DNA of 32,799 nucleotides from Frankiaceae bacterium (GTDB lineage: Bacteria; Actinomycetota; Actinomycetes; Frankiales; Frankiaceae): assembly GCA_017882765.1 (NCBI GenBank), contig JADGOW010000006.1, forward strand, positions 1 to 32,799, in the 5' to 3' direction. The notes under the pieces are model-generated. The model saw only the letters and a program-made list of their open reading frames with translations. It was not told the DNA's origin and ran no database searches. Both the position numbers and the translations under genes were made by a program. Shown here piece after piece: positions 21,077-27,539 of the stretch (position 1 is the stretch's first letter; each line of letters opens with the position of its first letter).

Positions 21077-23743
21077 CTATGCGGCTGCTGATCGCGTCGG
21101 CTCGGACGCGCCGACATCGAGGGAACGCACGAGCAGGAACGGCGTGGACTCGCCGCCCTGGCCCAGTGGATTGTCGGCGAGCAAGTCCGCGAGCAGCCGT
21201 TCGTCCACGCCCGGGCTGGCACCCAGGATGTTGGCACCGATGTCGTTGACGTCGATGACCGCCACCTCGACCGGGCCGCCCGCGTCGGCGCTGAGCGCGC
21301 GCGACAGGGCGGCCGCGACCCCGGCCGGATCCTCGGGGGCGCGCTTGGCGTGGGTGTTGTACGGGGGGATCGTGTGCGGCGTCGGGCCGTCGATCGCCGA
21401 CACCTGCGGGCCGACGATCCGGTAGAACACGCCGTGGACGCCGAAGGGCCTGGTCACCGCCGCCGCGACGGCCGCCCGGACAATGCGTGCCGGGCCCACC
21501 TCATCAAGGGCCAGCTGCATCGTCTCGGGCACGCCCAGCCCGATGCCGACGGGCGTTCGGCTGACGAAGCGGCTCAGGGTACGGGCGAGCCGCGTCGGGT
21601 GGATCTCGGCGAGCGGCAATGAGCGCCCCTGGCTGATCGCGACGACCTTCTCGCTGGTCGCCAGCAGGTCACCGGGGCGCAGCCCGGCACCGGACGTGGC
21701 GAGCGCCTCCCGCAGCGCCGCAGTCAGGTCGTCCCCGCTGCTGATGAGCCTGCTGCGCAGCGGCGCGCGCAACCACGGGCGGGCGGGCTCGCCCGCGACC
21801 AGGACCAGATGGCGCCCCTCGTTCGCGGCCAGAGTGCCGACAGCCGCGCGAGTCTCCGCCGGCTGCTGGGCGAGGTAGGCCTCGTCGCCGATCGCCTGGA
21901 ACGACGACTGGACGGTGTGTTTGCGGCTGCGCAGCCGGCCCTCGTCGAAGAACACGCGTAGCCAGATCTCCAGAGCGACGACCCGCCAGAAGAACAGGTG
22001 CGGCTCGATCTCTCCGGCGCAGGCGCGGCGCCACATCTCGGCGATCTTCAACCCGTCCCAGTACGGACGGCTGACGAACGCCGGGGAGCGGTAGATGCTC
22101 TGCAGGATCACCCGACGCGCCTTGAGCCAGCGTGCCTCCGGCGTCGTGAACCCGATCTTCTTCCGGCGGTTGCGGATCTTCTCCGGCAGCATGTCCCGAA
22201 GGCCCTCGCGGTTGATCCAACGGCTCCACCCGTCGCGGATGATGACGTCAGGCGGCAGCGAGAGCACCCACTCCACGAGCTCCTGGTCGAGGTAGGGCAG
22301 GCGGGCCTCGAGGCTGTGCGCCATCGAGTTGCGGTCCTCGTAGCGCAGCGCGGACGGCAGGCTGTACTGCAGGAGGTCCTGCAACAGGCGCAGCTTCAGG
22401 TTGTCGGTGCTGCGCGGGTCCTGCGGAGGGTCGAGCCGGCCCACCCACTCCGCGTTCAGCAGCGACCGGATGGGCAGCGCGTGCCGCCGGTTCTCCAGCT
22501 TGCGCCGGACCAGGGGCCCGACGGTGTCGCGCGCCCCCCACGCCTCGCGGGCGAAGACGCCGAACTTGCGCTCCTTGAGCAGTTGGCGCAGGTAGAAGAA
22601 CTGGTAAGGCACGTAGCCGGCCAGCAGCTCGTCCCCGCCCTGACCGTCGAGGAGTACCGTCACCTGCTCGCGCGCCTCCCGCTGAACGCACCACTGCGCG
22701 TACGGGCCGGTGCTCACGGTCGGTTCCTCGACGTGCCAGATGAAGTCTTCGACCTCGGTGAAGAAGCGCTCACTCGTCGGCCGAACTTCATACGACTCCG
22801 CGCCGGAGGCCGCGAGCACCACGTTGATGTACTCGCTCTCGTCGATCGGGTCACCGTCGAAGAGGGCGCTGAACGTCTTCAGCCGGTCCCCCATGCTGGC
22901 GGCGTCGGGCGCGTGCTCACGCAACAACTGGGTCATCGCCATCACGATGGAGCTCGAGTCGATGCCGCCGGACAGGCACGTCCCGACCGGCACGTCGGCG
23001 ATGAGGCGGCGCTCGATCGAGCGCAGGAACAGCTCGCGGAACTTCTCTGGGCGCCCGTCGCCGTCAGTGGTGAGGACAGGCTCCCAGTAGGCCTCGTCGT
23101 GCACGTCACCTGCACCGTGGATGCTCATCCAGTGGCCCGGCTGGAGCTGGTGGACGCCGGCGAAGAACGTCTCGCTTGTGTGGTCGTGGATGCCGGTCAC
23201 CAGGTAGTCCAGGATGCGCTGGTCGTTCGGGCGGACGTGCATCGACGGGTCCTGCAGGAGCGCCTTGATCTCTGAGGCGAACAAGAGGCGATCGCCGCTT
23301 CGCGCCCAGTACACGGGCTTGATCCCGAAGTGGTCGCGGCAGAGGACCAGCTTCGGGGCGGCGCCCCGCCGGTCGAGGATGCCGATCCCCCACATCCCGT
23401 TGAACCGGCGGAATGCGTCGGTTCCCCACTCTTCGTACGCGTGGACGATGGCCTCGGTGTCGCAGTCGGTTCGGAACGTGTGGCCGAGTGTGCGCAGCTC
23501 ACCGCGCAGGTCACGGTAGTTGTAGATCTCCCCGTTGAAGACCACCTGAACGCTGCCGTCTTCGGTGCCCATCGGCTGCGCCCCGTGGGCGATGTCAATG
23601 ATCGACAGGCGGCGGAAGGCCAGGCTGGCCTCCTCCGACTCCAGGAAGCCGTCATCATCGGGGCCGCGGTGACACTGCACCTCGGCCATCGCGGCCAGCA
23701 GCGCACGGTCCGGCGCACCCCAGAAACCGGCGATCCCGCACAT
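21077..23743 (-). CDS. Asparagine synthase (glutamine-hydrolysing) fused to a C-terminal F420-0:gamma-glutamyl ligase (CofE)-like domain
   Basis: N-terminal MCGIAGFWG (Cys2), HRGPDDDGF, NGEIYNY, PP-loop LSGGIDSSS; C-terminal ~230 aa GLRPGDLLATSEKVVAISQGR…GPQVSAIDGPTPHTIPPYNTHAKRAP…VIDVNDIGANILG resembling CofE-like ligases. One uninterrupted ORF of 888 aa. Confidence 0.87.
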   Translation of the reverse strand: MCGIAGFWGAPDRALLAAMAEVQCHRGPDDDGFLESEEASLAFRRLSIIDIAHGAQPMGTEDGSVQVVFNGEIYNYRDLRGELRTLGHTFRTDCDTEAIVHAYEEWGTDAFRRFNGMWGIGILDRRGAAPKLVLCRDHFGIKPVYWARSGDRLLFASEIKALLQDPSMHVRPNDQRILDYLVTGIHDHTSETFFAGVHQLQPGHWMSIHGAGDVHDEAYWEPVLTTDGDGRPEKFRELFLRSIERRLIADVPVGTCLSGGIDSSSIVMAMTQLLREHAPDAASMGDRLKTFSALFDGDPIDESEYINVVLAASGAESYEVRPTSERFFTEVEDFIWHVEEPTVSTGPYAQWCVQREAREQVTVLLDGQGGDELLAGYVPYQFFYLRQLLKERKFGVFAREAWGARDTVGPLVRRKLENRRHALPIRSLLNAEWVGRLDPPQDPRSTDNLKLRLLQDLLQYSLPSALRYEDRNSMAHSLEARLPYLDQELVEWVLSLPPDVIIRDGWSRWINREGLRDMLPEKIRNRRKKIGFTTPEARWLKARRVILQSIYRSPAFVSRPYWDGLKIAEMWRRACAGEIEPHLFFWRVVALEIWLRVFFDEGRLRSRKHTVQSSFQAIGDEAYLAQQPAETRAAVGTLAANEGRHLVLVAGEPARPWLRAPLRSRLISSGDDLTAALREALATSGAGLRPGDLLATSEKVVAISQGRSLPLAEIHPTRLARTLSRFVSRTPVGIGLGVPETMQLALDEVGPARIVRAAVAAAVTRPFGVHGVFYRIVGPQVSAIDGPTPHTIPPYNTHAKRAPEDPAGVAAALSRALSADAGGPVEVAVIDVNDIGANILGASPGVDERLLADLLADNPLGQGGESTPFLLVRSLDVGASEPTRSAAA

Positions 23744-24007: not shown

Positions 24008-26542
<2,535 letters not shown>

Positions 26543-26584: not shown

Positions 26585-27229
26585 TCAGGCCGCGCTGCTC
26601 GTCCACACCACGATGTCGAGAACGCGCAACGGTGACAGTGGGGGGCCGTCGGGAGGGACGAGCCGCGAAAACCTGCGCAGCTCGTCGGCGTTGGCCCGCA
26701 GGTCCTCCTGCATGGCCCGCAGCAGCAGCTGCATGTAGTCCCGCCAACTCCGGCCCAGTTTCGGTGCCGGCGGGACGCACGATTCGTGCTGGTAGAACAC
26801 CCGCACCTTGCTGTCGAAGAGCGGGACGAGAGATGGCCGCTTGCGGTGGAGCACCTTCGCAAGCAGGGATCCCTTGACGTCACGATCCTCGACCGAGGGG
26901 TCATCCAGCGGGTCGTAGAGGGAGGCCACGAGATCCAGAGTGGTCTCGTCCGCCGAAGCCAGGTCGATGCCTGGCGACAGCGCGTCCAGCGATCGCTGCA
27001 GCAGCGGCATCAGCCGGGTGAGCGTGTGCATGCGGTCCAAGCTGACGCTGACGCCGAGCAGCGCCGGGGCCAGCAGGTCTCCGGTGCACAACGTCTGGTT
27101 GTCATTGTTGGTGACGAGACCGTCGTAGTACGGGTAGGCGTAGCGCAACCCGGGCTTGTGCGGGCTGACGTACTCGGTAACGAGGCTCTCGGCGTCGAGA
27201 ACCTCGCGCGTGCCCCGGGCGAGCTTCAT
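26585..27229 (-). CDS. DUF6308-like protein of unknown function
   Basis: MKLARGTREVLDAESLVTEYVSPHKPGLRYAYPYYDGLVTNNDNQTLCTGDLLAPALLGVSVS…HRKRPSLVPLFDSKVRVFY; start set at 27229 rather than 27406. Confidence 0.8.
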   Translation of the reverse strand: MKLARGTREVLDAESLVTEYVSPHKPGLRYAYPYYDGLVTNNDNQTLCTGDLLAPALLGVSVSLDRMHTLTRLMPLLQRSLDALSPGIDLASADETTLDLVASLYDPLDDPSVEDRDVKGSLLAKVLHRKRPSLVPLFDSKVRVFYQHESCVPPAPKLGRSWRDYMQLLLRAMQEDLRANADELRRFSRLVPPDGPPLSPLRVLDIVVWTSSAA

Positions 27230-27341
27230 GGCGCAGTGCCTCCTGGCGACGACGTTGTCCAGACCCCTGGCAGCTTCCCACGGCCCACCCCGCTGTGGAC
27301 GGCAACGCGGCCCTACCGCGCGACGCGTATAACTTGGGGAC

Positions 27342-27539
27342 GTGACGACGGCGCAGGGCTGGACGCTGCTGAGCATCCTGGCGGTGTTCGCGAGCCTGGT
27401 CGTCACGCTCGTCCTCGCCCAGATCCACAGTCTGCGCAGCTACATGGACGCCCGCTTCGACGCCGTCGATGCGCGGCTCGACCACCTCGACCGCGACGTA
27501 CAGGCCGTCGTGAACCGGGTCTTCCGGCGCGACGAGTAG
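27342..27539 (+). CDS. Small single-TM coiled-coil protein
   Basis: 65 aa, one hydrophobic helix then heptad-like RSYMDARFDAVDARLDHLDRDVQAVVNRVF; TATAAC at 27328-27333 directly upstream of GTG 27342. Confidence 0.75.
   Translation: MTTAQGWTLLSILAVFASLVVTLVLAQIHSLRSYMDARFDAVDARLDHLDRDVQAVVNRVFRRDE

Follow-up and report, generated by a model that had tools for sequence, protein, structure and literature searches.

Results

An asnB gene fused to a CofE-like domain

The window, that is, the whole stretch of 32,799 nt analysed here, carries on its minus strand an ORF that runs unbroken from an ATG start to a TAG stop and encodes a protein of 888 residues; an earlier note made from the sequence had located this ORF but named no strand. 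The features of the gene and its product are listed here, with the evidence for each in brackets.

21077..23743, minus strand: AsnB and CofE-like fusion, 888 aa, stop codon included (ORF, Pfam/NCBIfam, codon-position GC)
23129..23743, minus strand: class-II glutamine amidotransferase domain, residues 1 to ~205 (Pfam and residue check)
21956..23044, minus strand: AsnB-type synthetase domain, residues 234-596, with the SGGIDS PP-loop at 258-263, Asp371 and Lys529 (Pfam and alignment)
22640..22642, minus strand: Gln368 codon, at the position of E. coli AsnB Glu348 and human ASNS Glu364 (alignment)
21818..21943, minus strand: linker, residues 601-642 (pLDDT minimum at 607-611)
21113..21817, minus strand: CofE-like domain, residues 643-877 (Pfam, conservation, AF2 model, Foldseek)

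A complete AsnB occupies residues 1-600, with Pfam matches to GATase_7 at 44-164 (2.8e-42) and to Asn_synthase at 234-596 (4e-72). The earlier note had read the chain as a complete class-II amidotransferase and AsnB synthetase joined to a CofE-like domain beginning near residue 640, and had proposed both an F420_ligase profile search and a structural comparison with CofE. Pfam, the catalytic residues and the predicted structure bear out this reading: the domain limits are 643-877, the F420_ligase profile matches residues 662-832 (E=1.6e-12, 47.8 bits against a cut-off of 25) and Foldseek pairs the domain model with A. fulgidus CofE.

As read from the sequence, leuA-like and hisD-like genes flank the fusion gene. 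An open frame at 24011-24760, between the fusion gene and leuA, has a weak match to DUF2567 (E 0.009), and a DUF6308 protein (26585-27406, E 2.9e-34) is encoded upstream of leuA.

The C-terminal domain

An AlphaFold2 model of the CofE-like domain, built with 53 homologues as input, has a mean pLDDT of 94.6, and its only significant Foldseek matches are A. fulgidus CofE entries (2PHN; probability 1.00, E 3e-10), at a TM of ~0.6 and an identity of ~20%. When profiles are compared, 25 FbiB/CofE sequences match the domain with an E of 1.2e-9, and the invariant Asp831 falls opposite the Asp of the CofE TDT motif. On the NCBIfam CofE equivalog TIGR01916 solo relatives of the domain score 31-32 bits; because the focal protein scores only 23 bits, far below the threshold of 180.65, its C-terminal domain is a CofE relative rather than a CofE.

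Among 53 diverse members of the CofE-like family 27 positions are invariant, among them acidic residues of a kind typical for metal sites, and the domain is conserved at least as well as the AsnB half. The focal domain has the motifs SEKxVAIxQGR, IDGPT..PPYN, DxND.G and DNPLGQG..TP; SEKxVAIxQGR, IDGP, DxND and DNPLGQG..TP are strictly kept in the family, and the invariant residues (protein numbering) include E698, Q705, R707, D785, D831, D834, D857, N858, Q862 and T867; Asp785 corresponds, by eye only, to the Asp of the CofE GxD motif.

With CofE (F420-0:L-glutamate ligase) the domain shares the fold, an xKxVxxxxGR motif, an L-x-P-x-D-P-D stretch and an Asp after the central strand. It has QGR where CofE has EGR, lacks the TDT.GR.WR segment, which is replaced by DxND.G, and contains an inserted helical stretch at about domain residues 95-135. 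It is shorter over the region that follows Asp150 of CofE, where CofE has F420-contacting segments (PMC10861534).

The AsnB half and Gln368

The focal protein has every glutaminase residue (Cys2, Arg45, Asn70-Gly71-Glu72 and Asp95, for Cys1, Arg49, Asn74 and Asp98 of the reference), and in the synthetase site the SGGxDS PP-loop and the equivalents of Asp351 and Lys449 are intact. Both domains, the catalytic Cys, Asn-Gly-Glu, the PP-loop and the Asp351/Lys449 equivalents are thus common to this protein and asparagine synthetase B (E. coli AsnB, 1CT9; human ASNS, 6GQ3), but where the latter has Glu348/Glu364 the focal AsnB has Gln368. The full catalytic set is retained in 25 of the 32 fusions examined. 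The PP-loop is intact in 27 fusions, of which 26 have Gln at the Glu348/364 position and one has His; Gln also stands there in adjacent and split partner AsnBs whose PP-loop is intact.

The same Gln (SGQGADE) is found in the N-acetylglutaminylglutamine (NAGGN) amidotransferase (TIGR03104), an AsnB-like enzyme whose substrate is an acylated dipeptide that a separate ligase produces, although the partner ligase in that case is a GNAT/ATP-grasp enzyme and not CofE-like. This amidotransferase is ~33% identical to the focal AsnB, belongs to a different clade and has its own separate copy in the genome; the focal protein remains below threshold on TIGR03104 (295 bits against 570). It does pass TIGR01536 (asparagine synthase; 424 bits against 267.1), a profile that is non-discriminating here, as the NAGGN amidotransferase passes it too.

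Human ASNS with E364Q or E364A is inactive with aspartate (PMC6748925). Because of this, and because the NAGGN amidotransferase has the same Gln, Gln368 points away from free aspartate as the substrate; it is compatible with a ligated substrate, without identifying one. As the earlier note had supposed, the role of the fusion is probably something other than plain asparagine synthesis, since the Glu needed by asparagine synthetase is replaced by Gln. In a tree of 70 AsnBs, a single branch (support 85) divides all those partnered with CofE-like domains (fused, adjacent or split) from all 30 separate AsnBs. The focal AsnB is set apart from ordinary AsnBs both by its clade and by its fusion to, or pairing with, a CofE-like domain.

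The genome's other AsnB (L003, at G000:C155) is the NAGGN amidotransferase, scoring 943 bits on TIGR03104, and is followed by an S9-type-peptidase-like gene.

Distribution and gene arrangements

A scan of a GTDB genome set for the CofE-like domain yielded 80 loci, the best 80 of 170. Of these, more than 30 have the domain fused behind AsnB in one ORF of ~780-960 residues, and these homologous fusions occur in Actinomycetota, Bacillota and Saccharibacteria. Dozens of genomes are represented, including named isolates and the complete chromosome of Brachybacterium sp. SGAir0954, and the AsnB halves from unrelated assemblies are up to ~66% identical to the focal one. In two Chloroflexota (L034 and L043) AsnB and the CofE-like protein are encoded by adjacent, overlapping genes, and in actinobacterium G275 the genes for the two halves share a reading frame and are parted by one stop codon. 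Other loci are solo CofE-like genes, many in genomes without any partner AsnB, and a strict two-component idea, in which the domain always accompanies AsnB, was rejected on this ground. The family as a whole is found in Actinomycetota, Bacillota, Chloroflexota, Armatimonadota, Fermentibacterota and Patescibacteria; the plasmids searched gave no match.

In an even sample of the phylum, 30 of 398 genomes have a match to the domain, some of them weak. A strong AsnB match is present in eight genomes of this sample, six of which have the CofE-like domain fused, adjacent or on another contig (G099), and two of which, at 40-42% identity, have no CofE-like domain. The domain tree contains two fused clades, with an SH-aLRT of 97 for the focal one, and it would fit either two fusion events or one event followed by later separation.

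No gene recurs beside the domain across phyla, the neighbours being lineage-specific, and they give no clue to a substrate. In Microbacteriaceae (L031, L049, L091 and others) the solo gene faces a sugar-transfer associated ATP-grasp gene (ATPgrasp_ST, PF14397), a neighbour kept in 17 loci, and a nearby gene in the same loci reads like a lysine/alanine-rich sigma factor. Clostridial solo genes (L050, L059, L064, L066, L067 and L068) are followed by apparent DUF1538 and P-II-like genes, both conserved, and one Clostridiales locus (L104:6181-8660) has three CofE-like stretches as tandem or overlapping copies. In Fermentibacterota/Aegiribacteria (L053, L061 and L063) the solo gene adjoins a 4-TMS holin-like gene (PF04020).

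Decay of the AsnB half

Six fusions (L027, L088, L092, L098, L105 and L079) have an AsnB half from which the catalytic Cys and the PP-loop, or much of the domain, are gone, while the CofE-like half is intact. In the AsnB tree this degeneration occurs on no fewer than three branches. Compared with their nearest intact sisters, the degenerate proteins are 30-51% identical in the AsnB half and 56-82% identical in the CofE-like half, whereas in intact pairs both halves diverge about equally. Within Brachybacterium the AsnB half is intact in L073 and L083 and decayed in L088, L092 and L105. In two genomes (G477 and G485) the degenerate fusion is accompanied by an intact, separately encoded AsnB from the partner clade, as if the AsnB activity had moved to another gene; in three Brachybacterium with a degenerate fusion no other AsnB relative was found. 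Because AsnB decays or relocates while the CofE-like half stays intact, the ligase-like half appears to be the constant part and amidation the variable part. Given these three Brachybacterium and the genomes with solo genes, amidation would not always be part of the function.

Separation from F420 biosynthesis

The source genome encodes a separate, canonical FbiB adjoining FbiA, and from these genes it appears to make F420. Among 50 genomes carrying the CofE-like domain, however, CofH is above the cut-off in only eight; 36 have no CofH match above ~110 bits, and the other six give matches of ~260-372 bits, partial or under the cut-off, perhaps to relatives from the menaquinone pathway. The survey includes draft genomes, from which a gene may be lost, but not in the proportion observed, and none of the seven Brachybacterium tested, one of them a complete chromosome, has CofH. 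Since the genome has a canonical FbiB and 36 of the 50 carriers lack a good CofH match, the fusion stands outside F420 biosynthesis, and no link to F420 is supported.

Discussion

The fusion described here is real and recurrent and is built from known kinds of domain, and we have found no description of a pairing of AsnB with an F420-ligase domain in the open-access literature. To our knowledge CofE has been described solely as the F420 tail ligase. The fold and the fusion together make amide chemistry likely, and the two-step ligation and amidation suggested by the earlier note is plausible. The reading that we prefer, argued by analogy and given about an even chance, is that of an amide-forming enzyme, bifunctional and unconnected with F420 metabolism, in which CofE-like ligation would be followed by AsnB amidation. 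CofE activates a carboxylate as an acyl phosphate and then joins glutamate to it (PMC10861534, PMC8498797). The CofE-like domain would similarly use a metal-bound nucleoside triphosphate to turn an acceptor carboxylate into an acyl phosphate, to which it would then join an amino acid, L-glutamate being the default guess. The AsnB half would hydrolyse glutamine, channel the ammonia, and adenylate and then amidate a carboxylate other than that of free aspartate, most simply that of the newly added residue or of its acceptor. Ligation would be the core activity and amidation a second step, relocated to a separate gene or lost in some lineages. Counting against this two-step scheme are neighbours that differ by phylum, the many CofE-like genomes without a partner AsnB, a moderate similarity to CofE with differing key motifs, and the TIGR01536 score of 424 bits.

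That score and the complete glutaminase and PP-loop would also suit an asparagine synthetase, or another AsnB amidotransferase, with a non-catalytic CofE-like tail for regulation or dimerisation, as would the fold common to fused and separate AsnBs and the full-length predicted model, which packs as a single unit (pTM 0.89). We consider this unlikely, given that the supposed tail equals or exceeds AsnB in conservation, with its 27 invariant residues, is encoded on its own in many genomes and persists undamaged beside decayed AsnB halves, and that Glu364Gln abolishes the activity of human ASNS with aspartate (PMC6748925). The genome also encodes GatB, so that a tRNA-dependent route to asparagine may be available.

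Comparably doubtful is the idea that the CofE-like domain acts as a transferase, kinase or hydrolase, making or breaking an acyl phosphate but attaching no amino acid, with AsnB supplying ammonia or acting on a different compound. In its favour, the EGR and TDT.GR.WR motifs of CofE are altered in this domain, and no neighbour names a substrate, but fusion to an amide-forming enzyme suits a ligase better, and the characterised members of the CofE fold known to us are all amide ligases. A role for the fusion in modifying F420, such as amidation of the glutamate tail, is very improbable; the CofE fold and a source genome with FbiB and FbiA would allow it, but the genome's canonical FbiB, the scarcity of CofH among the carriers, Brachybacterium included, and the shortening of the domain over the F420-contacting region after Asp150 (PMC10861534) all oppose it. 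An assembly or sequencing error merging two genes, conceivable in a 292-contig draft, is refuted by independent fusions in dozens of unrelated assemblies, one a complete chromosome, by the Foldseek match of the AlphaFold2 model to A. fulgidus CofE, and by codon-position GC that is even across the junction, with the pattern of a real gene on both sides.

Returning to the bifunctional amide-forming enzyme, a parallel may be drawn, by description and not by sequence, with MurT/GatD and LtsA. MurT is a Mur ligase and GatD an amidotransferase of a different class. In these systems, of which LtsA is a purF-type glutamine amidotransferase, amide formation caps carboxylates of a glutamate- or diaminopimelate-containing peptidoglycan precursor (PMC3266927, PMC7920481). 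Their role is in the cell wall, whereas no cell-wall gene recurs near the fusion.

Because the pairing recurs in several phyla, mostly without a recognisable F420 pathway, it probably builds some amide-containing molecule other than F420. There is a good chance that the CofE-like family represents a new enzyme function. The fuller proposition, that the domain founds a widespread, uncharacterised and F420-independent family of bacterial amide ligases and that the AsnB fusion makes an undescribed ligated and amidated small molecule or cofactor, seems to us evenly balanced. In practical terms, an annotation of 'F420-0:glutamate ligase' in such genomes should not be taken as a sign of F420 synthesis, and the solo, adjacent, fused, split and decayed forms provide a natural series for tests of function. 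A conserved CofE relative, found mostly in genomes that lack CofH and repeatedly linked with an amidotransferase, would imply an undescribed metabolite or cofactor common to soil actinobacteria, gut clostridia and candidate phyla.
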